Virus record (IMG/VR): IMGVR_UViG_3300025132_000066
Span: 1 to 46,901 of that record
Source: a virus
DNA: 46,901 nt
Direction: 5' to 3' (one strand)
Made by a program: the position numbers and the translations under genes. Below are positions 23,505-46,794 of the stretch, in pieces. The notes beneath the pieces were generated by a model. The model had not been told where the DNA came from, searched no databases, and saw nothing but the letters and a program-made list of their open reading frames with translations. How positions within the stretch are numbered: the first letter of the stretch is position 1; the number at the start of each line of letters is the position of its first letter.

Positions 23505-23656
23505 TAATAATCACCGCCTTCATTTAATATTTCTAGGGCTTTAATCAGATGTTCTTTTGCTTGCGACAAACTATGAACTGTCGCATCGTATTTTTTTGAT
23601 AAAGTAATCTTCATTTGTATATCATGAATTATTTTTTCTAATTCTTTCAAAACCAT
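23504..23656 (-). CDS. 50-residue helical microprotein after the polymerase C-half
   Basis: ATG at 23656 with GGAGG directly before it, or TTG at 23650 at better spacing. It overlaps the end of the polymerase C-terminal gene and its TAA overlaps the nuclease start (TAATG). The sequence is amphipathic helical (LKELEKIIHDIQMKI; HSLSQAKEHLIKALEIL) and has no cysteines or membrane span. No function is known. The tight overlaps on both sides support expression. Confidence 0.5.
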   Translation of the reverse strand: MVLKELEKIIHDIQMKITLSKKYDATVHSLSQAKEHLIKALEILNEGGDY

Positions 23657-24561
23657 TCCTCCAAACTTCTTTGTATTTTACCAGTTCTAATACTAAATAC
23701 ATCCCATCCCATAGATTCGTAAATAGGCTTCGCTTTCTTTAGAACTAATTCTGAATAGTGTTCCCAATCAGGAGTATATTTATCAAAATCTGAATTGATA
23801 ACTCCAGAAACATATTGTACCTTTTTCTTTTCTTTTGTTAGGGGATTGATATAAACGTCATGAACCCCTTTAACTTTTAAGAAAACATAAGAGTCATCAA
23901 AGTTATCTTCTCCCTTTTGCCAAGAATATAAAATTCCTGCTATGCCGGAACCAATAGAAGGTCTTCTTTTTTCTATTGTAAGAAAAGAAGATACGGGTTC
24001 GCCGCATTTATGTGTTCCTTCTCTTCCTTCATTTTCTCCACATAAGTTCAATTTAGTAATGTCTTTTAGACTATACTGTTTGTTACAAGACTGGCATTGA
24101 ACCATAAATCTAGATTCTCTAAGCCTACTTCTTTTGAGTAAAAGTTCCTTATCTATCTCACCATTTAGAACAGAACGATATATGGAATGTAGGTAGTTGT
24201 TTATCTCTACCATCTTCTTATTATTAACCCACATTTTTAATACTTCAGTTTGAACATTTTTTTCTAATTGGGTAACACTTACTCTTATGGCAGTAAAACC
24301 AGTCATAGTAAATTTAGGCTCTTTCAGCCATACTCCGTCTTCCCAAGTAACCATCCCTGCGTTTCTATTCTTTGTTGTTCCTACTCCTAAAGCAGAATAA
24401 TACTTTTCAAATTCAAGAACTACTGGATGTTGTTTTAAATTCATAACATTGGGAAAATGTTCCCTAACACTTTCTTCTATTATTTTGATAGATTCTTGAG
24501 CCTTTTCTACAGAATCAATCTGAACATAAATTGAATCTGTATGGCCATAAACCACTTTCAC
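23647..24561 (-). CDS. DNA polymerase B, C-terminal half (motif C, thumb, PIP box)
   Basis: A 304-residue second half of a split family B DNA polymerase. It begins directly with motif C, VYGHTDSIYV (residues 4-13), where the usual YGDTDS has His in place of the first Asp; the second Asp (D9), normally essential, is kept. The thumb region carries a four-cysteine zinc cluster (C156, C159, C174, C186), which is not a normal part of PolB. The last eight residues, QRSLEEWF, are a canonical PCNA-interacting box. It must pair with the N-terminal half at 26138-27793 to work. It overlaps its neighbours by four bases at the start. Confidence 0.9.
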   Translation of the reverse strand: MKVVYGHTDSIYVQIDSVEKAQESIKIIEESVREHFPNVMNLKQHPVVLEFEKYYSALGVGTTKNRNAGMVTWEDGVWLKEPKFTMTGFTAIRVSVTQLEKNVQTEVLKMWVNNKKMVEINNYLHSIYRSVLNGEIDKELLLKRSRLRESRFMVQCQSCNKQYSLKDITKLNLCGENEGREGTHKCGEPVSSFLTIEKRRPSIGSGIAGILYSWQKGEDNFDDSYVFLKVKGVHDVYINPLTKEKKKVQYVSGVINSDFDKYTPDWEHYSELVLKKAKPIYESMGWDVFSIRTGKIQRSLEEWF

Positions 24562-25551: not shown

Positions 25552-26141
25552 ACACTAAGCCCCGCATTTCTAAGAATAGCATTCATTTTTTCTTGTTGTG
25601 CTATTACCTTTGGATTTTGTTTACAACTTCTTGTTGAGTGATAGGTACTTTTACAATATTTACATTCACGTAATTTACCTGCTTTGGCTTTATCATTATA
25701 TTTCTTACAAGTGGCGCAAAGCCCGCCATCGTAATCTTTCTTATCACATCTATCCCCTTTCATATTAACAATACCATTACAACGACCTTCATTACATATT
25801 ACAAGGGGTAAAGAATCTATTACTTTCGCTTCTGCATCATCACTACTATAAAACTCTATGAGGTATTTATTTTTAGGAAACTTCAAACCTAAATATCTAC
25901 CAGTCCATTTTTCTTCTTTATGAGTCGGGTTTCCATATTGTTCAATTAGACTTTCAAGTGGCCTATTCTTAGAAAAGCCCCAAGTGACTGAATACCCATC
26001 TCTTTCGACAACGCAAAAATCTACACTATTTTCCTCTTCAAAATTATTTACTTTTTCATCTTCCCAATAGGAATAAAGAGGTCTATACCATTCAGTATCG
26101 GTTGTAACTAAGTCTCCTAAATCTTCATGTTTTGGTATCAT
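25548..26141 (-). CDS. Zinc-binding protein beside the polymerase N-half
   Basis: A 197-residue protein. The first 100 residues are a mixed alpha/beta domain (VVERDGYSVTWGFSKNRPLESLIEQYGNP) without known motif. The rest has many cysteines: C-x4-C (CNEGRC), then CDKKDYDGGLCATC, then CKYCKSTYHSTRSC, a CCHC-type knuckle. Two or more zinc ions are likely. The last 20 residues are helical. It overlaps the polymerase N-half stop by four bases (ATGA), so it is co-translated with it. It may bind nucleic acid; there is no evidence for more. Confidence 0.55.
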   Translation of the reverse strand: MIPKHEDLGDLVTTDTEWYRPLYSYWEDEKVNNFEEENSVDFCVVERDGYSVTWGFSKNRPLESLIEQYGNPTHKEEKWTGRYLGLKFPKNKYLIEFYSSDDAEAKVIDSLPLVICNEGRCNGIVNMKGDRCDKKDYDGGLCATCKKYNDKAKAGKLRECKYCKSTYHSTRSCKQNPKVIAQQEKMNAILRNAGLSV

Positions 26142-27793
26142 ACTTCTAACTCCTTAGCCTTAAACGCTGCTAATCTAATTGCTTCTCTCGCACTAGCCGT
26201 AATACTAGCGGCTAAATCAACATCAGCCCAACCAAATCCTTGAAAGGCAACAATACCATAAAATGAAGCCATTAGTCTCTTTACTGCCATTTGATTATTA
26301 TACCACTTTTGAAAATCGCCACTATTATTTTCTCTGGCTTCTTTCATCAAACGCTTATATTCATTTCTTAGTTCTTTCAATTCCAATACTGCTCTAGGCA
26401 AAAGCCCTAGTTCATCTGTTTTGTAATACAACATATGTTTATTCTTCACTTCACTAAAGTCTCTAGGAGTGGAAATGTTTACTGCAAATTCAGTAGGTTC
26501 TTTTGATTTGGTTTCCCAACTAATATTCCTAGCAATCATCATACTAGGGTATAGTCCTGCAAAATCAAAGGCTGCTACATTAAGATGCAATCCGTTTGTA
26601 TTTTCGCTTAATGGGTCATAAATCATAGCACCATCATAGTTCTTTCTTTCTACATTTTTATTTCCTGTAGGGGCTTTCCACCATGCATTTCTCATAAAAT
26701 AAATTGAACCCATATGAGAAGCAAAAAAACATGCATCAAATGGGGCTTTCAATAATCGTTGTAAAGATATAACTGCTTCACTACAATAGTTAGTTTCATC
26801 TATTTTGACTAATAACTCTACATCCACTAAAGCATATTCAAGATATATTTCTGTATCTTCTAACCATGCTCTACGAAAGAATTCGTTTTTATCTGTAAAT
26901 TTACTTTGTTTAACTTTACCTTCTTGAAATAATAGTTGTGATACATATTCTAATGATAAAGAAGGTAATGTTCCTCTTTGAGAATCATTCCACTGTCTTT
27001 CAAATGCTAGGTCAAGAGAGAGCGTTATACGGCCTCCTATGGGCTGCTCTATTGGAGAGAAACCCTTCTCAGCGTAGGCAAAAGAGAAACCCTCCTTCGC
27101 CTTCTTAACACCCTTAACGGATGCGATTGGAGACATTACTTGTGGGTCTAATCCTAAAGCACATACTCTTTTAATTAAATGGGGTAAATCGAATCTTTGA
27201 CCAAACCATGCAATTAACATATCGGGGTCTTTTACAATCATAGTTTTCATAAAGTCTTCAAGCATTTCTTTTTCAGAATCAAAAATATATCTTACTCCTG
27301 TATCAAAAACAGTATTCAATGGCTTATCGTTTGGAAACCAAACCCACTGATTATAGTGCTTATCATAATTATCATACACTACAATAGTAGTAATACAGTC
27401 GTGGTATTCTCCACCTTGTTGCCATTCCATATCCCAATACCATTTACGCATTTTATATTCTGGCATTTCATGAATACAATCAACTGCATATCTAAAATGC
27501 AAAGGAACATCTGCTTCATAAGTTTGCCTAAAACAATCTTTAGCCTTTCTAACATCAAACGAATTTTCTACATAAACTCGCTTTAATGGTTTTTTATTCA
27601 AGTTTACAAAATCGCCATTTTCATACTGAAAATCTCTTGAGATATATTTTGAAGGATTATACGAAGGAACTTCCTTCGCAGATTCTAAAACATAGAAGTA
27701 TGGCCTATGTTCTACTATCTTATGTTTCTTCTCTTTGTTTTCTCTCCAAGATAAGAATATACTTTTACCGTCTTTACACTTACTTATTATCAT
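26138..27793 (-). CDS. DNA polymerase B, N-terminal half (exonuclease, palm motifs A and B)
   Basis: A 551-residue first half of family B DNA polymerase. Exo I is WDMEW (D121, E123), Exo II is FGQRFDLP (D202, with Phe in place of the usual Asn) and Exo III is YALVD (Y320, D324), so 3'-5' proofreading should be active. Motif A is DFAGLYPS (D410) and motif B is KRLMASFYG (K505-G513), where the usual Asn is Ala509. The protein stops after REAIRLAAFKAKELEV, exactly where an intact polymerase would continue into motif C, which starts the gene at 23647. Together the halves total 855 residues, a normal PolB length. It follows the clamp gene with a TAATG overlap. Confidence 0.92.
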   Translation of the reverse strand: MIISKCKDGKSIFLSWRENKEKKHKIVEHRPYFYVLESAKEVPSYNPSKYISRDFQYENGDFVNLNKKPLKRVYVENSFDVRKAKDCFRQTYEADVPLHFRYAVDCIHEMPEYKMRKWYWDMEWQQGGEYHDCITTIVVYDNYDKHYNQWVWFPNDKPLNTVFDTGVRYIFDSEKEMLEDFMKTMIVKDPDMLIAWFGQRFDLPHLIKRVCALGLDPQVMSPIASVKGVKKAKEGFSFAYAEKGFSPIEQPIGGRITLSLDLAFERQWNDSQRGTLPSLSLEYVSQLLFQEGKVKQSKFTDKNEFFRRAWLEDTEIYLEYALVDVELLVKIDETNYCSEAVISLQRLLKAPFDACFFASHMGSIYFMRNAWWKAPTGNKNVERKNYDGAMIYDPLSENTNGLHLNVAAFDFAGLYPSMMIARNISWETKSKEPTEFAVNISTPRDFSEVKNKHMLYYKTDELGLLPRAVLELKELRNEYKRLMKEARENNSGDFQKWYNNQMAVKRLMASFYGIVAFQGFGWADVDLAASITASAREAIRLAAFKAKELEV

Positions 27794-29977: not shown

Positions 29978-31183
29978 TCAAAACCAATCAGTATTATCCT
30001 CCACTGGTTGACTTACTTCAACAGAAGCACCATGTCTTACAGTGCATAGAAGACCGGAAGTGTTGATAGTTACAGGCTCTACTTCACCATCTATAGTTCT
30101 TTGACTGGTTCTACCAACAATAATTACTGATGAACCAATACCGAAATCAAGCGTTAAATGTTCTGGAATCCAACAAGTGGTAATACCATCATTATCATAG
30201 TCTAATTCTGCATTTAAATCAGTGATGTAAATAATTCTGTTACCGTTCTTTGTTGGAATCATGTTCATATTACAGACAGTTCCATCTGTAATAATAAATC
30301 TCTCTTTAGATGGTAGTGCTTGACGTTGAAGATGTTCTTTATCCATTTCTACAAGAGAAACGATATGGTCGCTGAAATTGTTTTGAAGACATTCTTCAAA
30401 GTTAAAATCACCCATATCACGATAGATTTCATTTTCGGGGTCAAGGGAATCATTTGTAGTTAGACTCTTAATAGTTAAATCAGTTGCTCCATAAATATCA
30501 GTTCCATTTGAACCTTCGATACATAGGAAATGAACCCATTCAAAGGTATTAGGTTTGAAGTCAATACCGCCTTGATTCTTGTAAGAAAAGTTATACATTT
30601 TCATATCAGTTCCACCAATAGAACCAAAGAAGATACCAGACCTTCTAAATTGTTCTTTTGGAAGAGGCTTTCCAAAGTTAGCATTTTTGCCACCATTCAT
30701 GTAAGTAGCAGTATTATCCAATGGAATAAATACTCTTCCATCTTCTAGTGTTTCTGCTCCATCTGGTAGTTTAACAACTACTTTCTCTTGGTATTCGCCA
30801 TTATGATAACGTGATACAGACCACTTACCAATTGCGTTTTCATTTGCTACTGCAACAATTCCCTTTTCTAAAGCGTTATCGGCATCTCTAAGGAATTCTT
30901 CCTTGGCCTTTGCTCTATTCCAACTCATCATGTCTCTTGGGGCTTCTAGAGCCGCAAAGAAACCAAATGCTGCTCGGTAGTAAGAGTCGTTATTTTGGTT
31001 TCCACTCTTTTGGCTTCTTTTAGCATTAGCCACATAGTTTCTCCAAAGACCCAAACCGATAGGGTTGTCCTTTTCTATTCCATTCTGTTGACAAAGTTCA
31101 TCGAACTTTACCATAGCATCGTCTTCGGGAATACCCAAGACATCTGCGCCTTTCATTATTTCATTCTTCGTATTTTTATCCAT
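29978..31183 (-). CDS. RPA/SSB-like single-stranded DNA-binding protein
   Basis: A 401-residue protein starting at the ATG after AAGGTGAAAACA. The C-terminal half has OB-fold-like strands: ERFIITDGTVCNMN, GNRIIYITDLNAEL and TLDFGIGSSVIIVGRTSQR. The last residues (PVEDNTDWF) are acidic and end in aromatics, like the tails by which SSB proteins recruit partners. The N-terminal 100 residues are helical. An OB-fold protein of this length in a replisome operon, next to the clamp loader and recombinase, fits ssDNA binding at forks. It is not close enough to a named RPA subunit to be certain, so the symbol is omitted. Confidence 0.6.
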   Translation of the reverse strand: MDKNTKNEIMKGADVLGIPEDDAMVKFDELCQQNGIEKDNPIGLGLWRNYVANAKRSQKSGNQNNDSYYRAAFGFFAALEAPRDMMSWNRAKAKEEFLRDADNALEKGIVAVANENAIGKWSVSRYHNGEYQEKVVVKLPDGAETLEDGRVFIPLDNTATYMNGGKNANFGKPLPKEQFRRSGIFFGSIGGTDMKMYNFSYKNQGGIDFKPNTFEWVHFLCIEGSNGTDIYGATDLTIKSLTTNDSLDPENEIYRDMGDFNFEECLQNNFSDHIVSLVEMDKEHLQRQALPSKERFIITDGTVCNMNMIPTKNGNRIIYITDLNAELDYDNDGITTCWIPEHLTLDFGIGSSVIIVGRTSQRTIDGEVEPVTINTSGLLCTVRHGASVEVSQPVEDNTDWF

Positions 31184-31210
31184 TGTTTTCACCTTTTTTT
31201 ATTTTTATTT

Positions 31211-32569: not shown

Positions 32570-33409
32570 TCAAAATTCAAAGAGCGAGGTTTGCTCTATT
32601 TTTATTGGGTCTAGTTTCTTTCTTTTGCGCTTCTCTCCCAATTTTAGAAGTCTGCAATCTGCATTGTTTAATTTCGTTTTAGCCCAGTTTTTAAATTCTT
32701 CATCTTTCAATAACTGATGTAGGACTTTAGGCTCCCTTACTCCTAGTTTTCTTGCTAGAAAAGGTATTTTACTGTATGTCCCTCTCTTTGGCATATTTAT
32801 TCTTCCACTAATATTTCCTACGTGAGTATATGCTAGAATATCATAGAAGTATGCTTGTGACCATCTTCTACGAACTCGACCATCAACAAATAAAAGCCTG
32901 TTAGGGTGTAGGTTTTCTGTAAGCCAAGTTAATATCTGAGTGTCAGAGGGTTTATTAAAGTGCAATAATTCTCTCACTAAATCTCTATCTCTTAATTTAA
33001 GATAATCAGAAACTAATGAGTATGTATCTCTTTCATATGAAAAAGGCTTTTCACTTCTTGGTGCTATTTCTTTCATCTGTTCTTCTAAATGATTCTTAGA
33101 ACCTGCTCTTTTGATTTGACACATGGCTTTAATTTGTTTAGGAACGCTTTTTTCATTTATTGAAGTAATTACAATTTGGCCTTTGTAGTGTCTTAAAATG
33201 AATAAGATACTTTCTTTATCTGGTTTAATATGAATATCTTCAATAATAATTCCATTATCAATAGGTATTGAACCTACATCTATGTTAATATCATTTGCAT
33301 ATACTATAATAGGGTCATTCACAAAGGTTTTTGCTTTTGTAGATTTCCCTGTTCCTGTTTTTCCTGTAAGTAAGATTGGCCTTATTGTTTTTAAATTAGT
33401 AAAACCCAT
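32570..33409 (-). CDS. AAA+ ATPase with C-terminal PIP box, probable RFC large subunit
   Basis: A 279-residue protein with Walker A GKTGTGKS (16-23), an acidic Walker B-like IIIEDI, and a sensor 1-like VITSINE. The middle (about 130-230) is helical, like an AAA+ lid and collar. It ends in QTSLFEF (273-279), which matches the terminal PCNA-binding motif of archaeal RFC large subunits, such as the one ending in QATLFDF. RFC-L is usually 400-480 residues, so this would be a shortened and diverged version. No SRC motif is seen, as expected for RFC-L. The gene is one short gene away from RFC-S. The alternative is a PCNA-tethered AAA+ protein of another kind. Confidence 0.65.
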   Translation of the reverse strand: MGFTNLKTIRPILLTGKTGTGKSTKAKTFVNDPIIVYANDINIDVGSIPIDNGIIIEDIHIKPDKESILFILRHYKGQIVITSINEKSVPKQIKAMCQIKRAGSKNHLEEQMKEIAPRSEKPFSYERDTYSLVSDYLKLRDRDLVRELLHFNKPSDTQILTWLTENLHPNRLLFVDGRVRRRWSQAYFYDILAYTHVGNISGRINMPKRGTYSKIPFLARKLGVREPKVLHQLLKDEEFKNWAKTKLNNADCRLLKLGEKRKRKKLDPIKIEQTSLFEF

Positions 33410-37373: not shown

Positions 37374-38864
37374 CTACTCCTCCACCAATACGGCAACATC
37401 TGTAGAATAAAATAATTGTGCTATAGACATGGCTGCTAAGAAACTATTCTTAGTGACTTTAACTGGGTCAAAGACCCCTTCATCTACTAAATTTTTCATT
37501 TCTCCAGTTAGTGCATTAAAACCAACTGGATATTCTTCGTATGATTTTACTACTGTATTGCTATTTTCAAATAATGTAAGATATGGTTCTGTCATTGGAT
37601 TCTTCAACCAATCAGGAGCATCAATTCTTTTACTACATTCCATTAATGCTAATCCGCCACCGGCTACAATACCTTCTGATAAAGCGGCTCTTGTTGCATT
37701 TAGAGCATCATCAAGTCTTTCTTTCTTTTCTAGCATTTCCATTGATGAAGATGCTCCCACTTTAATTGTCGCTACTCCACCTTTTAATCTAGCAATTCTG
37801 GATTTAATTCTAGCGGAATCATATCCTTCTGTATTTTCTAACATACCTTTGAGGTAAGAGACTCTTTCTGAAGTGTCGCCTTCCGCACCAATAAGGATAG
37901 TTCTTTCTTTTGAAACTTCAATACTTTCACAAGTTCCAAAGTCACTTTCAGTAAATGTTTTTGGGTCATCTTTACTTTCTTGGGTAAAGATAGTTCCACC
38001 AACCATAGCCTGTATATCTGCTAATTCATCTAATTGATGGTCGCCAAAGTTAGGAGCAAGACATACTACACAGTCCACTGTTTTGTTCATAATATTCATG
38101 AGTAGATTATTTAATGCTGAACCATCTATTCCTTTACAGAATATCAAGAGTGGTCTTTTACTATTAGCAGCAAATTCTAACATTGTAATTAAATCTTTAA
38201 AGTTTCTAAATGAAAGATTTGACATGAATATAAGTGGGTTCTTGAATACAGTTCTAGCATCATCTGTATTCGCCATCAGATGGCTAACATAACCTTCTGT
38301 TAATTGCATTCCTTCTCTTAGAATTAATTCTGTTACATGAGAGTTAGATTCTTCTACCGTTACTATACCTTCTCTACCTACTTTAGAGATAGCCTCGCTA
38401 ATTAAATTACCAAGAGAATAGTCATTATTTGCAGCAATAGTCGCAACACTCACTATATCTTTATCTAAGACATCAATAGAAAGATAGTCTAATTCTTGTA
38501 TCATATCTGATTTAAATTTTTCAAGAATGTGATAAACTTGATGAGTAGTATAATCATCAGTAATAGTTTGAAACAGAGAATTACATAATGCTTGTGCTAA
38601 AACGCAAGCCGTTGTTGTCCCGTCACCAGAATTATCTTGTGCTTTACTGGCCAAGTTTTGAACCATTTGAATTCCCATCTGAATATAAGGGTCTTCATGA
38701 GAAATGTGCTTGGTAATAGTTACTCCATCATTAACGATGATTGGAGGATTATTCTGTAAAATAACAGTTTTAGCCTGTGGCCCTAACGTGGGCTTTACAG
38801 TGTTTGCCACTAAATTAATTCCTTGTAATAACTTCTCTTTAACTTCTTTTCCTTGTATAATCAT
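37374..38864 (-). CDS. groEL: Group I chaperonin (GroEL-like)
   Basis: A 496-residue chaperonin of the bacterial GroEL type. It has KPTLGPQAKTVIL, the ATP-binding SGDGTTTACVLAQ (80-92), VGREGIVTVEES, and ERLDDALNATRAALSEG followed by IVAGGGLAL, which contains the catalytic Asp region. These are group I features; the archaeal thermosome (group II) lacks them. It is about 50 residues shorter than GroEL and has no Gly-Met tail. It probably forms a ring that folds viral proteins with the co-chaperonin encoded just upstream. The start ATG follows GGCGGTGATTGA and overlaps that gene's stop by four bases. Confidence 0.95.
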   Translation of the reverse strand: MIIQGKEVKEKLLQGINLVANTVKPTLGPQAKTVILQNNPPIIVNDGVTITKHISHEDPYIQMGIQMVQNLASKAQDNSGDGTTTACVLAQALCNSLFQTITDDYTTHQVYHILEKFKSDMIQELDYLSIDVLDKDIVSVATIAANNDYSLGNLISEAISKVGREGIVTVEESNSHVTELILREGMQLTEGYVSHLMANTDDARTVFKNPLIFMSNLSFRNFKDLITMLEFAANSKRPLLIFCKGIDGSALNNLLMNIMNKTVDCVVCLAPNFGDHQLDELADIQAMVGGTIFTQESKDDPKTFTESDFGTCESIEVSKERTILIGAEGDTSERVSYLKGMLENTEGYDSARIKSRIARLKGGVATIKVGASSSMEMLEKKERLDDALNATRAALSEGIVAGGGLALMECSKRIDAPDWLKNPMTEPYLTLFENSNTVVKSYEEYPVGFNALTGEMKNLVDEGVFDPVKVTKNSFLAAMSIAQLFYSTDVAVLVEE

Positions 38865-39076
38865 TCAATCACCGCCATAATAAATTTAAGGGGAACAAAC
38901 TTTTTTCCATCGTATTCTTGAATCTTCTTTTCAGTAGAGAAGATAACTAATTTACCTTCTAGTTCTGGTTCTATTGAACATGATAAAACTCTACCAACAT
39001 TGTTTTCTTTCATCATGATGGTTCCACTACCTTGCATTTCTGCTTCTACTATAACATAATCATTTTTTGCTTTCAT
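38861..39076 (-). CDS. Minimal GroES-like co-chaperonin
   Basis: A 71-residue protein directly upstream of the GroEL-like gene. YVIVEAEMQGSGTIM, GRVLSC, LEGKLVIFSTEKK and FVPLKFIMAVIE follow the order of GroES: first strand VIVK, a mobile-loop region rich in G and T, GxVLAVG, VIF and a final ILAIVE. GroES is about 97 residues, so the loop and roof regions are shorter, comparable in spirit to the T4 gp31 co-chaperonin replacement. A seven-subunit cap is expected. The short length and divergence mean the call depends partly on its position. Confidence 0.72.
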   Translation of the reverse strand: MKAKNDYVIVEAEMQGSGTIMMKENNVGRVLSCSIEPELEGKLVIFSTEKKIQEYDGKKFVPLKFIMAVIE

Positions 39077-39618
39077 TCTTCTTCACCCCAAGATTGGACT
39101 CTTTCAAACTGAGATTCACGATAAATCGCTAATTGTTTAGGTGCGGTATTTTTCCAAAAACCGTAATGGCCTTCTCCACCCAAAACATAGGCACATTCCA
39201 TATTTGTTTGCCAAATGGAAACGGTTCTAATATCTACTCCACTGAAATAAGCAGCACCAAATGGATGAGTGTGAATCCAACATCGAATAGGGAGTTTCAT
39301 CCCTATGGGTGGGCTCATCCCAAACTCTACATAACCGCTTGAACCTGTAGTAACAAAACAATTGTTTTCTCCATCAATTACTACTTGGACTTCTAAATCA
39401 GGTAATATTTCTGTTGAAGCATACCAAATAGCATCAAAGAACCTTTTGTCTTCAAAAGCAACTTTGATATTTTCGACTTCCGATACTTTCTTAAAACAAT
39501 TTAAAACATACTCTTCTGCCTCTTTTCTTGCTACATCAATCGCTTTAAATTCATCATAGCCCGAATCATCAACGTCTTCGCCATAGGTTCTAATAAACCA
39601 ATCTCCTGTTTTACTCAT
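39073..39618 (-). CDS. JAMM/MPN+ metalloprotease (deubiquitinase-like)
   Basis: A 181-residue protein with a perfect JAMM zinc motif: HTHPFGAAYFSGVD, i.e. H116-x-H118-x7-S126-x2-D129. Upstream strands (LEVQVVIDGENNCFVTTG, YVEFGMS) provide the usual Glu. Such enzymes cleave isopeptide or C-terminal bonds of ubiquitin-like proteins (archaeal HvJAMM1, eukaryotic Rpn11) or release cysteine from sulfur carriers (Mec+). It lies in the same operon as an E1-like enzyme and 4.5 kb from a Ubl ending in GGHC, so it may process or remove that Ubl. The start is the ATG at 39618, after GGTGGTAATG; earlier in-frame ATG and GTG are also possible. Confidence 0.85.
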   Translation of the reverse strand: MSKTGDWFIRTYGEDVDDSGYDEFKAIDVARKEAEEYVLNCFKKVSEVENIKVAFEDKRFFDAIWYASTEILPDLEVQVVIDGENNCFVTTGSSGYVEFGMSPPIGMKLPIRCWIHTHPFGAAYFSGVDIRTVSIWQTNMECAYVLGGEGHYGFWKNTAPKQLAIYRESQFERVQSWGEEE

Positions 39619-39919
39619 CATTACCACCTTGTATTTTTACTAACTTATCTTGTAGCGTTTTAATTTTACGCAATAAACGCTTCTCCTTGCGTGATTTAGG
39701 TGTGCTACTGGGTAAGACACCCTTGCGCTTTTTCACCTCATTAGAAGCCTCTAGAAGAAGCACAATTCCTTCTTCAGTTTCATCATCCCATAATTTTTCT
39801 AGCCTTCCAGCGATAGCCTTGTATGAGACACCATACCTGTGCTTCGCTTCATCTATACTTAGTTCATAGAAATTAATCAATAAATCTAAGTCTTTTTCTT
39901 TATTCCATCTTTTACCCAA
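39611..39919 (-). CDS. Small Myb/SANT-like helix-turn-helix protein
   Basis: A 102-residue protein. The N-terminal 50 residues (KRWNKEKDLDLLINFYELSIDEAKHRYGVSYKAIAGRLEKLW) show the W-x-x-E-x-D-x-x-L-x-x-x-(Y/F) helix-turn-helix pattern of Myb/SANT or GcrA-like domains, so it likely binds DNA. The C-terminus is a Lys-rich coiled helix (SRKEKRLLRKIKTLQDKLVK). It starts at a TTG at 39919 with GGAGG seven bases upstream; no ATG is available. It lies between JAMM and E1-like genes and may regulate them. Confidence 0.6.
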   Translation of the reverse strand: MGKRWNKEKDLDLLINFYELSIDEAKHRYGVSYKAIAGRLEKLWDDETEEGIVLLLEASNEVKKRKGVLPSSTPKSRKEKRLLRKIKTLQDKLVKIQGGNDE

Positions 39920-39921
39920 AC

Positions 39922-40134
39922 TTAAGCCTCCAAGTGTTCACTTACTTCCATTTTAAATTCCCATTTGTGAAAATACTCATGTCTTGCTAGAAAACCACCA
40001 GCACCATTTATTGGCCCAATATATCTAGAAGCACATATTTGGCAAAAGGCCATGACAATTCTCTCTTCATAAACTGAACCATCTTTGGTTTCTATATCTA
40101 CGATTTCTCCGATTTCTTTTTCTGTATATCTCAT
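39922..40134 (-). CDS. Small zinc-finger-like protein
   Basis: A 70-residue protein. CQICASRYIGPINGAGGFLARHEYFHKWEF contains a CxxC followed by two His spaced as H-x4-H, a single zinc-finger-like arrangement. A GTG nine bases upstream is an alternative start that overlaps the E1-like stop. The N-terminus (YTEKEIGEIVDIETKDGSVYEERIVM) is beta-rich. It lies between the E1-like gene and the Myb-like gene. A RING-like or adaptor function cannot be claimed; there are too few cysteines for a RING. Confidence 0.5.
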   Translation of the reverse strand: MRYTEKEIGEIVDIETKDGSVYEERIVMAFCQICASRYIGPINGAGGFLARHEYFHKWEFKMEVSEHLEA

Positions 40135-40139
40135 ATTAA

Positions 40140-40703
40140 TCACATATTGATAACGGCATATTCTTTGACCTGTTCATCATTAAACCATCTTTGAACCCAC
40201 TGTGCGCCTAATCCTGCTATGGCTACTTGCATGAAATGAACTCCTTCTGTAGAACCATCCCATGAATCTCCTTGACAACTGAATGAACCTTCTTCTCCTG
40301 CCAATAATGTATCATACATTTTTGGGTCGGCTTTGTAACTAACAAGAGCAGCATTTCTACCTTGAGCCCTCAAATCAAGCCATTTAACAGTAGTGTTATA
40401 CAAAGTTCTTCTAAGGCCAATATTATCTACACAACAAATAACTAAGTCATATCCTTGCATTTGTTTTTCAGTTAGAATAGGAAATTGAATTGCCTTATTT
40501 ATTGAATCACTATAATTATCAGCCATATTGGTTGCTTTGTTTTGACCAACACTAACAATTTTAAAATTCTGGTAAGGTAAATTCTTTGTTTCAACCTTAT
40601 CGGGGTCGGCTACTGTAATATCATACAAACGAACCCTATCTAATACAGGAATAAGGAAACTCCCTATCCCTCCTGCTCCAATTACTAATATTTTTCTTTT
40701 CAT
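40140..40703 (-). CDS. E1/ThiF/MoeB-like adenylation enzyme
   Basis: A 187-residue Rossmann protein with GAGGIGS (9-15), D33-x-D35-x-V37-x3-NL41-42 (ADPDKVETKNLPYQ), VGQNKA (52-57), CVDNIGLRRTL (D93, R98) and a possible catalytic Cys at C143 (EGSFSCQGD). This is the set of E1-type enzymes that activate the C-terminal Gly-Gly of ubiquitin-like or sulfur-carrier proteins with ATP. At 187 residues it is shorter than MoeB/ThiF (about 240-250) and lacks the CxxC zinc pairs of those enzymes. It lies near the JAMM protease, and the Ubl gene is on the same strand upstream. It probably activates the GGHC protein after trimming to GG. Confidence 0.8.
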   Translation of the reverse strand: MKRKILVIGAGGIGSFLIPVLDRVRLYDITVADPDKVETKNLPYQNFKIVSVGQNKATNMADNYSDSINKAIQFPILTEKQMQGYDLVICCVDNIGLRRTLYNTTVKWLDLRAQGRNAALVSYKADPKMYDTLLAGEEGSFSCQGDSWDGSTEGVHFMQVAIAGLGAQWVQRWFNDEQVKEYAVINM

Positions 40704-40972
40704 TCTGAATCCTCCGAATAATTCACAAAGGTTTGCGCTCTTGAAGAAAGAGCGAAATTTGTTCTTTTAAAACTGTTAGATAATTGAATTACAGAACTTA
40801 CAAACTTCGCTAATTCTGGAACAATCTCTTGGTTTTGTTGTCTAGATAACAGTCTAAAAGCAGTTACTAAACAATTACAATCACTACAAACCCTTTGAGA
40901 ACTCTCCAAAAGAGGTTCGGGGTTGTTATGGTTATATTCTTCCATTTCTATTTCACAAAAACTACATTTCAT
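40700..40972 (-). CDS. Zinc-binding small protein next to E1
   Basis: A 90-residue protein with CSFC near the start, then CSDCNC at about residues 29-34, enough for one zinc site. The rest is helical (LVTAFRLLSRQQNQEIVPELAKFVSSVIQLSNSF). It overlaps the E1-like start by four bases (ATGA), so it is co-translated. Not RING-like enough to call an E3. It starts at ATG 40972 after TAGGTGTATAAAT. Confidence 0.55.
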   Translation of the reverse strand: MKCSFCEIEMEEYNHNNPEPLLESSQRVCSDCNCLVTAFRLLSRQQNQEIVPELAKFVSSVIQLSNSFKRTNFALSSRAQTFVNYSEDSE

Positions 40973-40974
40973 AT

Positions 40975-41817
40975 TTATACACCTATTTTATTTATATTTT
41001 TTCCTTTTATTTCTTTAACATTTTTACAACCAATTAAACCCATCAATATTTTAGTTTGTAAATAAATACATTTTTCATCTATTTGAGTTTTTTCAGCAAT
41101 AAGAGTTCTAGTATATTCTCTTACAAATATATTAGAAGTAATCCAACAAATACTAGCATAATAAGATTTACTTCTATTTGTATTTCCCATTATTTTTTCA
41201 AACTTTTCTAACACTTGTAAACTTTGATTATAAAAGGATAAATCATTTGTTATTTGTGTTAAAGCCTTTTTTAAATAATATTCTGGACTAATTAAAGTTT
41301 GACTATTTTTATAATGTGAATTAATTTTTCGCAATATTCTTCTAACCAATTTAGGCTCTACTTCAAATTCTGAACACACTTCTTTCATTGTTGCAGGAGT
41401 TCCCATTTCTCTTAGAACATAGAATACTATTGCCGTTGCCCTATTCTCATATGTATAACGAGTAAAGCCCTTTAATGATGAATATAATTCATGGTAGACT
41501 CTCTCTACTCTTTCTTTAACTTCTTGGGAGTGAGAGACATTACTCAGAACCATATTACAATAAATCAAACCATTAGTTATATGTCTAGGAGTTATTGGAT
41601 TTTGAAACCTGTTGTATTTAGAAGAACCTTGCCCAGTTATTATAGAACCAAGGTTGTTATTATCAGCATTGTGAATTACTTCACCCTTAGAATCTAATAT
41701 GTGAGTTGTCTCTTCAAACATTCCTTGGACTAAAACTAATCCACATGAAGAACAGACTTTTTCTCCTAATCTCTCATCATAATAATTTTCTTTACTATTA
41801 CATTCATCACATTTCAT
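40975..41817 (-). CDS. tfb: Transcription factor B (TFB/TFIIB homologue)
   Basis: A 280-residue TFB. An N-terminal zinc ribbon is formed by CDECNSKENYYDERLGEKVC followed by SSCG. A B-finger-like linker follows, then two cyclin-like repeats with typical helices (YENRATAIVFYVLREMG; MKEVCSEFEVEPKLVRRILRKI; YASICWITSNIFVREYTRTLIAEKTQI). TFB recruits RNA polymerase at TATA-box promoters in archaea. Its presence is the strongest evidence for an archaeal host, and a viral copy may redirect transcription to viral promoters. The start is placed at the ATG before the zinc ribbon (overlapping the previous stop by 11); an upstream extension is unlikely. Confidence 0.9.
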   Translation of the reverse strand: MKCDECNSKENYYDERLGEKVCSSCGLVLVQGMFEETTHILDSKGEVIHNADNNNLGSIITGQGSSKYNRFQNPITPRHITNGLIYCNMVLSNVSHSQEVKERVERVYHELYSSLKGFTRYTYENRATAIVFYVLREMGTPATMKEVCSEFEVEPKLVRRILRKINSHYKNSQTLISPEYYLKKALTQITNDLSFYNQSLQVLEKFEKIMGNTNRSKSYYASICWITSNIFVREYTRTLIAEKTQIDEKCIYLQTKILMGLIGCKNVKEIKGKNINKIGV

Positions 41818-42955
41818 TCCAATCAACTCTATTATCATTCTCTTTATCAACAATAAAACTGCCGATAGTGCTTACTATTTTTATTGTAAATACATCATTT
41901 AGAAGGGCTAAGGCTCTACCCGCAAATTGGTCGCCAATTGGTGTGCTTTCTCCCATATTATCTATACAAATAGGGCCACGCCAAGAAGGTTTAACAAATC
42001 TAAATTCTCCTGTTTTGTTACCCTCATCATCTAGAATCTGTTCTTTTTCTGGTTGCCATACATATGTAGAAACTGCTTGGTTGCGACTATTTCCTCCAGA
42101 ATATTTTAACATCCAATCGTATTTCTTACCCCTTATGTGTAAATTAGTTAAAACTCCTGTTTCAGAAAATACTGCTTTGAGTCTATCTGGATATTGTTTC
42201 AGCATATCCTCTACCAACTCAATTGCTCTCTTTTCTACAATGTCTTGCTTTCTATTCTGTTTAAGAAAAGCAACTAATACTTTCAAATCTGAACCTAGAG
42301 GTTTTCTACCCATTACTTTTTGATATAGGTTTTGAGGGGAAATATACTTCCATTTACTCCTTTTCTTACCGTGAACATAAAAACTACAATAGTTATCTAA
42401 ATCTTTAAATGAAATACTTCCCCAAACACCATCTCCTATTTCTATGGCACACTCGCTATCGGAGATACGCTTTACGTTTAGTCTTACTTCATGCAAAGAA
42501 AAGTCATGGTAGAAAAAATAAGGTAATCTATTTTCTATTACATATTTTATAGACTCTGGAATTTCTAGAGTAGAATACAAATATGGTAATAACTTTATGG
42601 GGTCTTTTTCAAAGCAACTCTTGAAAAGGACTCTTGCTAAAGCATTACACATCTCATCTAGAGTCATTAGTCTACCATTAATGTAATACCTAGAAGTTTT
42701 CTTAATATGAAAGGGGGTATCTCCTATCATAAGGGTATTATTAGTAAAAGGTAATCCACTGAAGAATCTAAAAGACCTTCCACTATTTTTGAATGACGCT
42801 TTTAATGCTGCAACTAAAGCACTATGGATTGGGTCTTTTTTCGTTACATCTCCTCTAATATCTACAGTTCTTTCGTATAGTTTTTTTTCAGTAAAATTTA
42901 TACTTGTAGTCCAATACTGCCCACTATCATCTGGTTTTCTTATTCTTATTTTCAT
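41807..42955 (-). CDS. Unknown 382-residue protein upstream of TFB
   Basis: No family is recognised. The N-terminus is alternating strands (KIRIRKPDDSGQYWTTSINF). The middle is helical with FEKDPIKLLPYLYSTLEI and a basic KKRSKWKYISPQNLYQKVMG. The C-terminus (SWRGPICIDNMGESTPIGD, then FAGRALALLNDVF) has a G-P-I-C-hydrophobic-x element before a long helix, which faintly recalls the catalytic Cys region of E2 enzymes; this is speculative and would need structure prediction. It overlaps TFB by 11 bases, so it is co-translated with it. It starts at ATG 42955 with no strong ribosome site. Confidence 0.55.
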   Translation of the reverse strand: MKIRIRKPDDSGQYWTTSINFTEKKLYERTVDIRGDVTKKDPIHSALVAALKASFKNSGRSFRFFSGLPFTNNTLMIGDTPFHIKKTSRYYINGRLMTLDEMCNALARVLFKSCFEKDPIKLLPYLYSTLEIPESIKYVIENRLPYFFYHDFSLHEVRLNVKRISDSECAIEIGDGVWGSISFKDLDNYCSFYVHGKKRSKWKYISPQNLYQKVMGRKPLGSDLKVLVAFLKQNRKQDIVEKRAIELVEDMLKQYPDRLKAVFSETGVLTNLHIRGKKYDWMLKYSGGNSRNQAVSTYVWQPEKEQILDDEGNKTGEFRFVKPSWRGPICIDNMGESTPIGDQFAGRALALLNDVFTIKIVSTIGSFIVDKENDNRVDWNEM

Positions 42956-42959
42956 TACA

Positions 42960-43121
42960 TCACATCAAATATATATTAGTATTATCTTTATTGCACTCTT
43001 CATGCATTTCTATTTTTATATCTTGGGGAGTATATAATTTACCCCCACAAACCCTACATTGGGTTGCTACTTTATTGTTTCGTCTATTGTTTATAATATG
43101 TTTAGGGTCTTTATCTTTCAT
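42960..43121 (-). CDS. 53-residue zinc-binding protein
   Basis: ATG at 43121 overlaps the upstream stop; TGA at 42960-42962 is four bases before the next ATG. The centre has CRVCGGKLYT and later HEEC, enough for a CCHC zinc site. The N-terminus is strongly basic (KDKDPKHIINNRRNNK). It resembles small viral zinc-ribbon proteins that bind nucleic acid. No family recognised. Confidence 0.55.
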   Translation of the reverse strand: MKDKDPKHIINNRRNNKVATQCRVCGGKLYTPQDIKIEMHEECNKDNTNIYLM

Positions 43122-43471
43122 GCTGCTATTCCCTCCTCAAATAATAAATCAAAATTATTTATTCTTACTTTACAAATATTACAAGGTTTTCCTTGTAACT
43201 TATTGCAGTTAACTTTATGATATTCTGATAAATGATAATAAAATTCCATCTTTTCATTAAGATAGTGATTAAATCCATCATCTACTGCTTGGGGTATTTT
43301 CCAAAAAATATCATACAATGAAGTTTTTAACATAAACTTCTTATCACGGTTATCATAGTCAGAAGACATTATAACCATTGAGCGTAATTTGGCTTTTGCT
43401 GTTGAGTCGAATTCTCTCATAAACAATACCAGTGATTGAATCACATCCTCATATGACATTTTGTTATACAA
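43118..43471 (-). CDS. Unknown protein with a C-terminal CNIC motif
   Basis: A 117-residue helical protein. The start is a TTG at 43471, four bases after GGTGATAT; an ATG at 43459 is the alternative. The C-terminal 35 residues contain C, then CNIC (VNCNKLQGKPCNICKV), a probable zinc site. Helices (YEDVIQSLVLFMREFDSTAK; VDDGFNHYLNEKMEFYYHLSEY) fill the rest. It overlaps the next gene by four bases. Function unknown. Confidence 0.5.
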   Translation of the reverse strand: MYNKMSYEDVIQSLVLFMREFDSTAKAKLRSMVIMSSDYDNRDKKFMLKTSLYDIFWKIPQAVDDGFNHYLNEKMEFYYHLSEYHKVNCNKLQGKPCNICKVRINNFDLLFEEGIAA

Positions 43472-43475
43472 AATA

Positions 43476-43868
43476 TCACCGGATGTATTTGTTCCTTTTA
43501 GGAACGGTATCTAAAGAAGTAAAGGTAGTAAGAAACTCTTTTCCAGTTCTAGTTACAACCCACTCTTTTTCTTCAACGAATTTCCAATTATTAAAATCAG
43601 ATATACTATCATGACCAAACCTCTCGATTAATTTATTGACACTATCAAATACTTCGTCTTTATATTCTATAATAGTGAATCCACAAGTATAGACAAATCC
43701 TTTGCCATAAGGTTCGCTCAGTGCAAAGATATGTCCTTCGGGATAAAAGTCTGGCTTGAATAAAATTAGATTATTGTAATATCTAGGATTAGTTACTTTC
43801 CAACCTAATTGTTTTAAAAATATATTTAGGGCTTCTTCCTCAATAAAATACATTTTATTGGGCATCAT
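43476..43868 (-). CDS. Unknown 130-residue protein behind a terminator-like hairpin
   Basis: No family is recognised. It has a helix (IEEEALNIFLKQLGWKV), strands (NLILFKPDFYPEGHIFALSEP; FVYTCGFTIIEYKDEVF) and a basic end. Its start (ATG 43868, after GGGTGATG) lies directly after the U-tract of the hairpin at 43880-43917, so expression may depend on readthrough of that terminator or a promoter in between. It is possibly regulated by the hairpin. Confidence 0.55.
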   Translation of the reverse strand: MMPNKMYFIEEEALNIFLKQLGWKVTNPRYYNNLILFKPDFYPEGHIFALSEPYGKGFVYTCGFTIIEYKDEVFDSVNKLIERFGHDSISDFNNWKFVEEKEWVVTRTGKEFLTTFTSLDTVPKRNKYIR

Positions 43869-43879
43869 CACCCAAAAAA

Positions 43880-43917
43880 GGGGAAGACGCTACTCAGGGT
43901 AAAGTAGCGACTCCCCC
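43880..43917 (-). terminator. Strong stem-loop terminator after the Ubl gene
   Basis: A stem of seven perfect pairs, CGCTACT/AGTAGCG, extended beyond a T:T mismatch by about seven more pairs (one G:U) to GGGGGA-G/TTCCCC, around an eight-base loop. On the - strand it is followed by TTTTTT (43874-43879). It stands 28 bases after the Ubl stop and just before the ribosome site of the next gene, so it may end the Ubl transcript or act as an attenuator. Intrinsic hairpin terminators are less usual in archaea than in bacteria. Confidence 0.75.
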
Positions 43918-43945
43918 GAAATGGCTAACAATAATTAGTCCAAAT

Positions 43946-44152
43946 TCAACAGTGGCCTCCGACAATAGCGGGGGTTAAGTCCACTGATTGAACTTCATCC
44001 CAATTGATGTTAGAAATCTCTTCTCTCGCAACCATCTCACCATCAATAAAACACCAATGGGTTGGGTGGCGGTCAATTTGCTCAATTACTTCCGTTTCCG
44101 AAAGGCTGAGTTCTGTGTGTCCTGTTTCGTTTAAAATTCTTAGTTTAATCAT
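43946..44152 (-). CDS. Ubiquitin-like/sulfur-carrier-like protein ending in GGHC
   Basis: A 68-residue protein with the size and strand order of a beta-grasp Ubl. MIKLRILNETGHTELSLSET is the first hairpin, EVIEQIDRHP the helix, THWCFIDGEMVAREE the middle strands, and DEVQSVDLTPAIVGG the last strand with a C-terminal diglycine (G65, G66) and two extra residues H67-C68. Sulfur carriers of the ThiS/MoaD type end in a similar ...PPVAGG, and SAMP/ubiquitin precursors are trimmed after GG. The C-terminal HC would need removal by a protease such as the JAMM enzyme of this operon before E1 activation. The gene appears to be its own unit, with a TATA-like box upstream and a strong terminator downstream. 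The GG end is the key evidence; structure is inferred. Confidence 0.72.
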   Translation of the reverse strand: MIKLRILNETGHTELSLSETEVIEQIDRHPTHWCFIDGEMVAREEISNINWDEVQSVDLTPAIVGGHC

Positions 44153-46143: not shown

Positions 46144-46794
46144 CTATTTCTCCGATAATAATATTTGAGGGTATTTTGGATTCGTAGCATTATAGGCTCG
46201 AACACCAATATTGTATTTTTTAGCATAGTGGTTATTGGGCCACCATTCAGGTTGTCTGCTCTTTTTCCATTTAGCAAATCGCCATTTACCCTCAAGATAA
46301 TAATGACGATAAGATTCGACTACAAACTCCCAAGAAGGTTTCTTTGGGGGTAATCTGTATTCATCTGCCATAGCAATATTAACAGGAGTCAATTCCTGCT
46401 TAGGATAGGCATGTTCACGAATTAGTTCTTTGTATTTCCAAACATCTTCTATTCTTACTTGAGAACCGTGTTTTTTCTCATAGCGATAAGTGTATTCGTG
46501 GCAAAGCCATCTACCATGTCTAAAGAGCCATTTGAAATTGTCTCTTGATTCTCTCGCCCAAATAGTTGAAGGATGATTCAACATGGCTGGTTTCATCAAC
46601 TCTGAGTTGATTTTACTATGAAACGCTTTGAGATGTTTAAGTTCTGGTTCTGTATTATACTCAACAATATATTTCATGTAGAGAATATTGGTATGTAACA
46701 TTTGACAAGTTTCCGTTGGCATTTTAACTACATGCTTATTTATCATTTGTTGTGCTGATTCTTCGGGACATTTTGATAATGCAAATATATTCAT
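46144..46794 (-). CDS. Conserved phage protein of the KHVxKM family
   Basis: A 216-residue protein that begins MNIFALSKCPEESAQQM, INKHVVKMPTETCQML and then a helix. This N-terminus (NIFxLxxxPxxxAxxxxxKHVxKMxxETxQML) is widespread in phage genomes; some relatives have been annotated as pyrimidine-dimer DNA glycosylase-like, others as unknown. The rest is helical, with WRFAKWKKS and a C-terminal WWPNNHYAKKYN. Its enzymatic activity is not established here. The start ATG follows a partial gene whose TGA is four bases away. Confidence 0.65.
   Translation of the reverse strand: MNIFALSKCPEESAQQMINKHVVKMPTETCQMLHTNILYMKYIVEYNTEPELKHLKAFHSKINSELMKPAMLNHPSTIWARESRDNFKWLFRHGRWLCHEYTYRYEKKHGSQVRIEDVWKYKELIREHAYPKQELTPVNIAMADEYRLPPKKPSWEFVVESYRHYYLEGKWRFAKWKKSRQPEWWPNNHYAKKYNIGVRAYNATNPKYPQILLSEK

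Follow-up and report, generated by a model that had tools for sequence, protein, structure and literature searches.

A Predicted Ubiquitin-like Conjugation Module in Magrovirus-like Archaeal Viruses

Results

The minus strand of a virus record, IMG/VR entry IMGVR_UViG_3300025132_000066, which we analyzed over its full 46,901 bases (hereafter the window), carries four genes whose products resemble the parts of a ubiquitin-like (Ubl) protein conjugation system: a Ubl protein of 68 residues, a 382-residue protein that is likely to be a divergent E2, an E1-type enzyme of 187 residues, and a JAMM metalloprotease. By its gene content the window appears to come from a magrovirus-like archaeal tailed virus, and its host and family are suggested on the same grounds; magroviruses are tailed and infect marine Poseidoniales archaea (PMC10768690; PMC12999244). 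The plus-strand half of the window encodes a tail tube protein and a protein of 2268 residues. The minus-strand half encodes a split family B DNA polymerase (PolB), an RFC small subunit, an ERCC4-type nuclease, a PD-(D/E)XK nuclease, and an ATP-dependent DNA ligase, and also holds TFB and GroEL/GroES. PolB, RFC-S, DNA ligase, TFB, GroEL/GroES, and the two oppositely transcribed halves are all shared with the Magrovirales (Aoguangviridae, Apasviridae, and others; PMC10768690; PMC12999244), and the genome size of 90-110 kb that goes with this content and layout holds for the near-complete relatives, which measure 92.8-96.9 kb.

The Ubl gene (43946-44152, minus strand) encodes a protein ending in ...DLTPAIVGGHC. 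An earlier note, made from the letters of this stretch, had singled out this 68-residue protein and had agreed to give up its reading if the predicted fold were anything other than a beta-grasp; both AlphaFold2 and structure searches give a beta-grasp. The AlphaFold2 model, built on a 32-row alignment, has a mean predicted local distance difference test (pLDDT) score of 87.2 and a predicted template modeling (pTM) score of 0.70, and runs strand-strand-helix-strand-strand-helix-strand with a floppy tail. Its best PDB matches in Foldseek are ubiquitin, NEDD8, and SUMO, with probabilities of up to 0.99 and an expectation (E) value of only 0.007. In VIA-align, MoaD subunits lead, and ubiquitin, SUMO, TtuB, ThiS, and bacterial Ubls also match, at Z scores of about 5. 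Bacterial Ubl complexes with E1-E2 and with a deubiquitinase (8tyz, 8tyx) are among the structural matches. Such modest E values and Z scores are expected for a model of 68 residues, and nearly the whole match list consists of one fold. We found no valid Pfam or NCBIfam model for this protein. Identification as a PinA-type Lon inhibitor (Pfam 1.4e-4, below the cut-off) or as an SH3 domain was rejected because the predicted fold and its matches are of the beta-grasp/ubiquitin kind.

The Gly-Gly pair of the Ubl is unchanged in 66/66 distinct orthologs and is followed by 0-3 residues, which may be nothing, Y, Q, C, SL, NL, SC, HY, GNQ, or others. A fixed Gly-Gly with a short, varying tail is what marks a Gly-Gly terminus whose tail is expendable. 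The invariant Gly65-Gly66 (codons at 43955-43960) is the predicted mature C terminus, and the His67-Cys68 tail (43949-43954), which corresponds to 0, 1, 2, or 3 variable residues in relatives, is predicted to be trimmed. Lysine accounts for 1.1% of residues across the Ubl relatives, compared with 8.3% in 31 sampled minus-strand proteins of the window, and this near absence of lysine favors single tags over lysine-linked chains. The Ubl is also the most conserved of the four proteins, with a mean column identity of 71% versus 35% for JAMM. Like other members of the Ubl/SAMP/MoaD superfamily, it may be attached covalently to proteins or may carry sulfur. When the Ubl pattern was sought in host genomes, it appeared only in two contigs of one Altibacter metagenome-assembled genome, which we took as viral contamination; these contigs (NZTP01000027.1 and NZTP01000030.1) carry the viral Ubl at 79-81% identity and are probably magrovirus sequence mis-binned with a bacterium.

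The E1 gene (40140-40703, minus strand) encodes a minimal ThiF/E1 adenylation domain, matching Pfam ThiF at 1.4e-15 (57.6 bits, against a curated cut-off of 28.1). The features that the earlier note had read in this 187-residue enzyme are all present: the nucleotide-binding motif GAGGIGS (residues 9-15; 40659-40679), DPDKVETKNL, and C143. NCBIfam ThiF models also match, the family profile finds UBA5, Cap2, Uba4, and MoeB in the PDB, and the PADLOC E1-E2 models match at 3e-11. Across 89 aligned sequences, GxGGIGS (G9/G11/G12), K56, D93-N94, and C143 show little or no variation. Cys143, which lies in the sequence S-F-S-C-Q (codon at 40275-40277), is the candidate thioester cysteine. "SAMP-like," the label given to the system in the earlier note, proved loose: the E1 scores only 28 bits against the cut-off of 450 for the SAMP-activating E1 (UbaA) model, NCBIfam NF047750.

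The JAMM/MPN+ metalloprotease gene (39073-39627, minus strand) gives 184 residues from the listed GTG, with a likely start at Met3 or Met4. Its zinc/catalytic motif, HTHPFGAAYFSGVD, which the earlier note had already pointed out, occupies residues 119-132 (39232-39273). A single JAMM protein scores 0.009 against Pfam Prok-JAB (16.3 bits, gathering cut-off 25), and the family profile finds an AMSH-like protease at 1.7e-4 and an archaeal Rpn11-like protein at 3.7e-3 in the PDB. By profile it is a divergent member of the family, nearest to the AMSH and Rpn11 deubiquitinases. The residues of the E ... HxHP-x(n)-S-x2-D signature, E79, H119, H121, S129, and D132, are the same in all 48 distinct sequences compared, and the motif is retained in all complete JAMM copies of the wider locus set. 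Invariance on this scale in the Ubl, E1, and JAMM proteins goes well past what chance would give. Four copies in that set are truncated; they represent one contig, cut at its edge. The seeming loss of JAMM in four loci is likewise a contig-end artifact, the 94,926-bp contig carrying JAMM at its opposite end. The C terminus reads GEEE, and in nearly all relatives the last two or three residues are glutamates, with E183 and E184 at least 90% conserved.

Variation in the Ubl tail bears on what JAMM does. Wherever the Ubl ends in a bare Gly-Gly, JAMM is kept (26/26 loci). On the E1 tree, no fewer than five state changes separate bare from tailed forms, and well-supported branches force three or more of them. 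Because viruses with a bare Gly-Gly Ubl keep an intact JAMM, tail trimming as its sole role was rejected, and JAMM must do more than trim. Of the two roles that the earlier note had proposed for JAMM, His-Cys removal is thus not its only job, and the cutting of conjugates would be the simplest answer for a second one. The Rpn11 of Caldiarchaeum is reported to be active on both precursor and conjugates (PMC6043591).

Between the Ubl and E1 genes lies the 382-residue protein (41807-42955, minus strand), which the earlier note had overlooked in describing a three-part system; the trio that it named is real, and the set was incomplete. The AlphaFold2 model of this protein, from 62 rows, has a pLDDT of 89.5, and its C-terminal half consists of a helix, five strands, Cys330, and further helices. 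The 50 matches listed by VIA-align are of E2, UEV, or UFC1 type, together with FANCL, VPS37A, and a Mediator subunit, and they cover model residues of about 235-380; the C-terminal domain (235-380) thus resembles the UBC/E2 fold, a modeled likeness that is not proof by itself. Cys330, in W-R-G-P-I-C-I-D-N (codon at 41966-41968), is the candidate catalytic cysteine. It follows strand 314-329 immediately, ahead of helix 340-352, the placement of an E2 active site. It is invariant in 84/84 sequences and in all complete members of the wider set, and the near-invariant columns of the protein include no second cysteine. Its surroundings, G-P-I-C-I-D-N, resemble, by our comparison, the G-x-I-C-L-D of E2s. 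Residues 1-234 make up the N-terminal part of the protein.

We then used profile searches of all fetched magrovirus loci, counting those that span the module. The Ubl, E2-like, E1, and JAMM genes lie on one strand in that order in 221/221 loci, which represent 84 distinct combinations and spans of 4.1-9.5 kb. The Ubl, E1, and JAMM trio, which the earlier note had proposed to look for in related viral contigs, is accordingly present in all 221, and none of them has lost the Gly-Gly while keeping E1 and JAMM, the pattern that the note had named as contrary to its reading. Because the gene order of magroviruses is conserved in general, this co-occurrence is supportive rather than decisive. Relatives were also chosen by PolB rather than by the trait itself: all four genes are present in 10/10 of those that are near-complete (at least 92.8 kb; range 92.8-96.9 kb), and the PolB-chosen records that lack the module are shorter and were taken as fragments. 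In one record of 184,733 bases, IMGVR_UViG_3300021958_000021, the whole module occurs twice, in divergent copies separated by about 90 kb, as if two magrovirus genomes had been joined.

Other genes lie among and beside the four, and the module genes overlap on their single strand. A viral TFB (40975-41853, minus strand; Zn_Ribbon_TF 2.2e-6) sits between the E2-like and E1 genes, a conserved neighbor that is not a Ubl component by fold. The earlier note had remarked on small zinc proteins between the genes, and three with cysteine/histidine motifs are indeed there, at 40700-40972, 39922-40143, and 42960-43121. The last, a 53-residue protein on the minus strand with a conserved C-x2-C ... H-x3-C that likely binds one zinc, is the most widely conserved of them, adjoins the E2-like gene in most loci, and is a possible accessory. 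The small genes between the module genes vary in presence across loci. Directly downstream of JAMM are a GroES-like gene (38861-39076) and GroEL (37374-38864), both on the minus strand (37374-39076 together), which we regard as context outside the system.

Elsewhere in the window, the two parts of the split polymerase are encoded on the minus strand at 23647-24561 and 26138-27793, one with the exonuclease and N-terminal polymerase part and the other with the C-terminal polymerase part. By eye, three proteins of the replication half end in PIP-box-like (PCNA-binding) sequences: QRSLEEWF (23647-24561), EQTSLFEF (32570-33409), and NTDWF (29978-31192). The product of 46144-46794 (minus strand) matches pyrimidine dimer DNA glycosylase (Pfam 1.6e-7), and repair of UV damage is plausible in a surface-ocean virus.

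Discussion

These data lead us to propose, with a probability of roughly two in three, that the virus encodes its own reversible E1-E2-Ubl-JAMM conjugation cascade. The firm ground for this proposal is the predicted Ubl fold, the identity of the E1 and JAMM proteins, the invariance of the predicted active residues, and the strict co-occurrence of the genes; the E2 enters the scheme by its modeled fold. Conjugation itself, the order of its steps, and its targets are what we infer from these parts. The Ubl would be made with a tail of 0-3 residues (His-Cys here), which JAMM would cut to expose the Gly-Gly. E1 would then adenylate the terminal glycine with ATP and take over the Ubl, probably on Cys143. 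Cys330, in the UBC-like domain of the 382-residue protein, would next accept the Ubl, and that protein would hand it to amino groups of targets, from which JAMM could also strip it.

As for those targets, the module lies in the replication/transcription half, brackets the viral TFB, and adjoins the chaperonin, away from the tail genes; because of this location we think that they are regulatory or replication proteins of host or virus, and not tail parts. In Haloferax, a TATA-binding protein is reported to be tagged and degraded by the proteasome (PMC4895103). This makes a takeover of transcription a natural guess by analogy, and only a guess.

The earlier note had left conjugation and sulfur transfer side by side. 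In the latter case, the Ubl would be a sulfur carrier of the CysO/Mec+ or TtuB/ThiS type: E1 would adenylate its Gly-Gly, a sulfur donor would make the thiocarboxylate, and the sulfur would go to viral or host tRNA, nucleotide, or cysteine, with JAMM hydrolyzing a carrier-cysteine adduct or trimming the tail. The parts would suit such a scheme, since a small Gly-Gly beta-grasp protein, a ThiF-type E1, and a Mec+-type JAMM are those of CysO-like systems, the Ubl has MoaD, TtuB, and ThiS among its structural matches, the E1 is matched by NCBIfam ThiF models, and a JAMM retained beside a bare Gly-Gly Ubl also fits a Mec+-like role. We nevertheless consider this unlikely. A UBC-like fourth protein with an invariant cysteine always accompanies the trio, the JAMM profile is nearest to the AMSH/Rpn11 deubiquitinases, and four sulfur-transfer families, namely Aminotran_5 (PF00266, cysteine desulfurase), ATP_bind_3 (PF01171, TtuA/Ncs6-type), Rhodanese (PF00581), and PALP (PF00291, CysM-type), were found in 0/10 near-complete genomes in searches whose controls were positive. 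As the host could provide these enzymes, their absence is evidence and not proof. Taken with the constant presence of a likely E2 and a deubiquitinase-like JAMM, it leads us to favor conjugation over sulfur transfer.

A second alternative, to which we give the same low credence, keeps conjugation and dispenses with a working E2. Here E1 alone would drive three-component, SAMP-like conjugation as in Haloferax, and the 382-residue protein would be a noncatalytic UBC-like (RWD/UEV) adaptor or an unrelated viral protein. SAMP systems work without an E2, and assigning the protein to the E2s has no support from sequence and moderate support from structure, with no HPN motif. An adaptor or bystander, however, sits poorly with a Cys330 that is invariant in every complete sequence compared, is the only near-invariant cysteine of the protein, and is placed like an E2 cysteine, where the last strand gives way to a helix.

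Somewhat less probable again is counter-defense, in which JAMM would strip host tags from virions or viral proteins while the host system faces competition from the viral Ubl and E1. Bacteria are reported to deploy Ubl conjugation against phage, and Borg elements carry many JAMM proteases proposed to counter host SAMP tagging (PMC12660748); the viral JAMM active site is itself AMSH/Rpn11-like. A decoy, though, could do without a conserved E2-like protein and without conservation of the ATP site and cysteine of E1, and the family keeps all of them. In addition, the tag is the best conserved protein and JAMM far less so (71% against 35%), the reverse of the arms-race pattern expected of a decoy. 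A role in virion or tail assembly, on the model of the lambda tail proteins I (Ubl) and K (JAB), is very improbable: a Ubl and a JAB domain do occur as a pair in phage tail operons (PMC1779556), but this module lies in the minus-strand replication/transcription half by TFB and the chaperonin rather than in the plus-strand tail half, and it includes an E1, whereas lambda-type sets lack E1 and E2 and have JAB fused to NlpC/P60.

Several observations count against an E1-E2-Ubl-JAMM cascade. The VIA-align Z scores of the 382-residue protein (4.5-5.8) are under the tool's safe level, and its Foldseek E values exceed 0.08. Every attempt at proof from sequence was negative: 62 members of the family gave no match to Pfam E2 families, a PDB sequence-profile search with the family gave no meaningful match and Pfam did likewise, and hhalign against three E2s gave E values of 0.3 and 0.04 and did not outperform all of the shuffled decoys. 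The HPN motif is absent from the conserved columns of the family. In the E1, N41 and Q45 are conserved, but the canonical arginine of N-L-x-R-Q is replaced by an invariant Tyr44, and there are no paired zinc cysteines. In the family profile alignment, C143 aligns to a cysteine in the UBA5 stretch ESACFAC, which we take to be a zinc-site cysteine of UBA5 and not its catalytic one. The possible supply of sulfur enzymes by the host belongs here too, as does the share of the co-occurrence that reflects general conservation of gene order. On balance, we regard the 382-residue protein as likely to be an E2 by function, on the strength of its modeled structure, and keep it out of the Pfam E2 family because it has neither a Pfam E2 match nor an HPN.

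With somewhat less assurance than for the cascade itself, though still on the favorable side, we suggest that this is a core pathway of the Magrovirales. It would comprise a tag, an E1, a member of a new E2 family in which the G-P-I-C-I-D-N site is fused to a 234-residue domain, and a deconjugating JAMM. Such a cascade, the first to be complete in an archaeal virus, would rewire host or viral proteins during infection. Prokaryotic Ubl conjugation has been studied mostly as a host function or as host defense against phage; here, all the predicted parts are viral. No near-complete relative that we examined lacks the module, and the group is described as occurring throughout the surface ocean. 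If the proposal is right, archaeal viruses run their own protein-tagging program, and a natural cascade this compact, its E1 minimal and its E2 possibly of a new family, bears on the origin of ubiquitin systems. Because all four proteins are small, the claim can be tested in vitro without culture of virus or host. The natural spread of tails from 0 to 3 residues, set against an always intact JAMM, offers a ready comparison of trimming with deconjugation.

Both bacteria and archaea are known to have sets of Ubl conjugation genes, parts of which also occur in viruses and mobile elements. None of the papers that we searched pairs "magrovirus" with "ubiquitin," and the published profiles of Magrovirales that we consulted, which otherwise agree with the window, are silent on ubiquitin, E1, and JAMM genes (PMC10768690; PMC12999244); earlier annotation at the level of single genes is possible. 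Among viruses, lambdoid phage tail proteins I and K likewise represent a virus-encoded Ubl with a terminal glycine plus a JAB (PMC1779556); they differ in having no E1 or E2, in belonging to a tail operon, and in the fusion of JAB to another peptidase. In named phage records, the E1 has only distant relatives (28%; crAss-like and others), and none could be detected for the Ubl or JAMM; positions 1-50,000 of halovirus HVTV-1 have no annotated E1 or JAMM. Among the crAss-like viruses, genes 88-89 of Bacteroides phage DAC15 (MT074136.1; 4554-6663 of the locus analyzed) place a ThiF-type E1 (profile E value to the magrovirus E1, 1e-15) beside a Prok-JAB protein (6.5e-5). These are viruses of bacteria, however, with an E1 of 336 residues and a JAB protein of 365 residues whose JAB domain is N-terminal, and no relative of the Ubl or of the 382-residue protein was detected in five proteins neighboring the DAC15 E1. 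Both DAC15 proteins are annotated as hypothetical, and the JAB protein also resembles PRTRC system protein A; by eye, DAC15_91, a gene close by, may encode a protein with a ubiquitin-like domain at its N terminus.

Among archaeal systems, SAMP/UbaA/HvJAMM1 of Haloferax likewise combines a Gly-Gly beta-grasp tag, an E1, and a JAMM, and is reversible (PMC4443979, PMC4895103), whereas the viral E1 is remote from UbaA (the 28 versus 450 bits given above) and a likely E2 is present where none is known to be needed in Haloferax. The operon of Caldiarchaeum subterraneum (Ub, E1, E2, small RING, Rpn11) has in common with the viral set its archaeal setting and a tag precursor with extra C-terminal residues (PMC5654768, PMC6043591), and the magrovirus JAMM lies near an Rpn11-like protein in the profile search. 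That operon is chromosomal; the magrovirus set is virus-borne, with a minimal E1, an extremely divergent E2-like protein, and no RING E3 that we could find.

Bacteria offer parallels as well. Type II CBASS Cap2/Cap3 and the Bil/Bub operons (Ubl or target, E2, E1, JAB protease) share the set of Ubl, E1, E2-like protein, and JAMM; the viral E1 profile matches Cap2 structures and PADLOC E1-E2 (3e-11), and the Ubl matches 8tyz and 8tyx, while PADLOC has no match for the Ubl, JAMM, or E2-like protein. In the magrovirus set, by contrast, E1 and E2-like are separate proteins, the former a minimal 187 residues and the latter without sequence similarity to known E2s and with a 234-residue N-terminal part. 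The magrovirus set also differs in that its gene order takes in TFB and small zinc proteins, and in that its genes are viral core genes rather than part of a host defense island.

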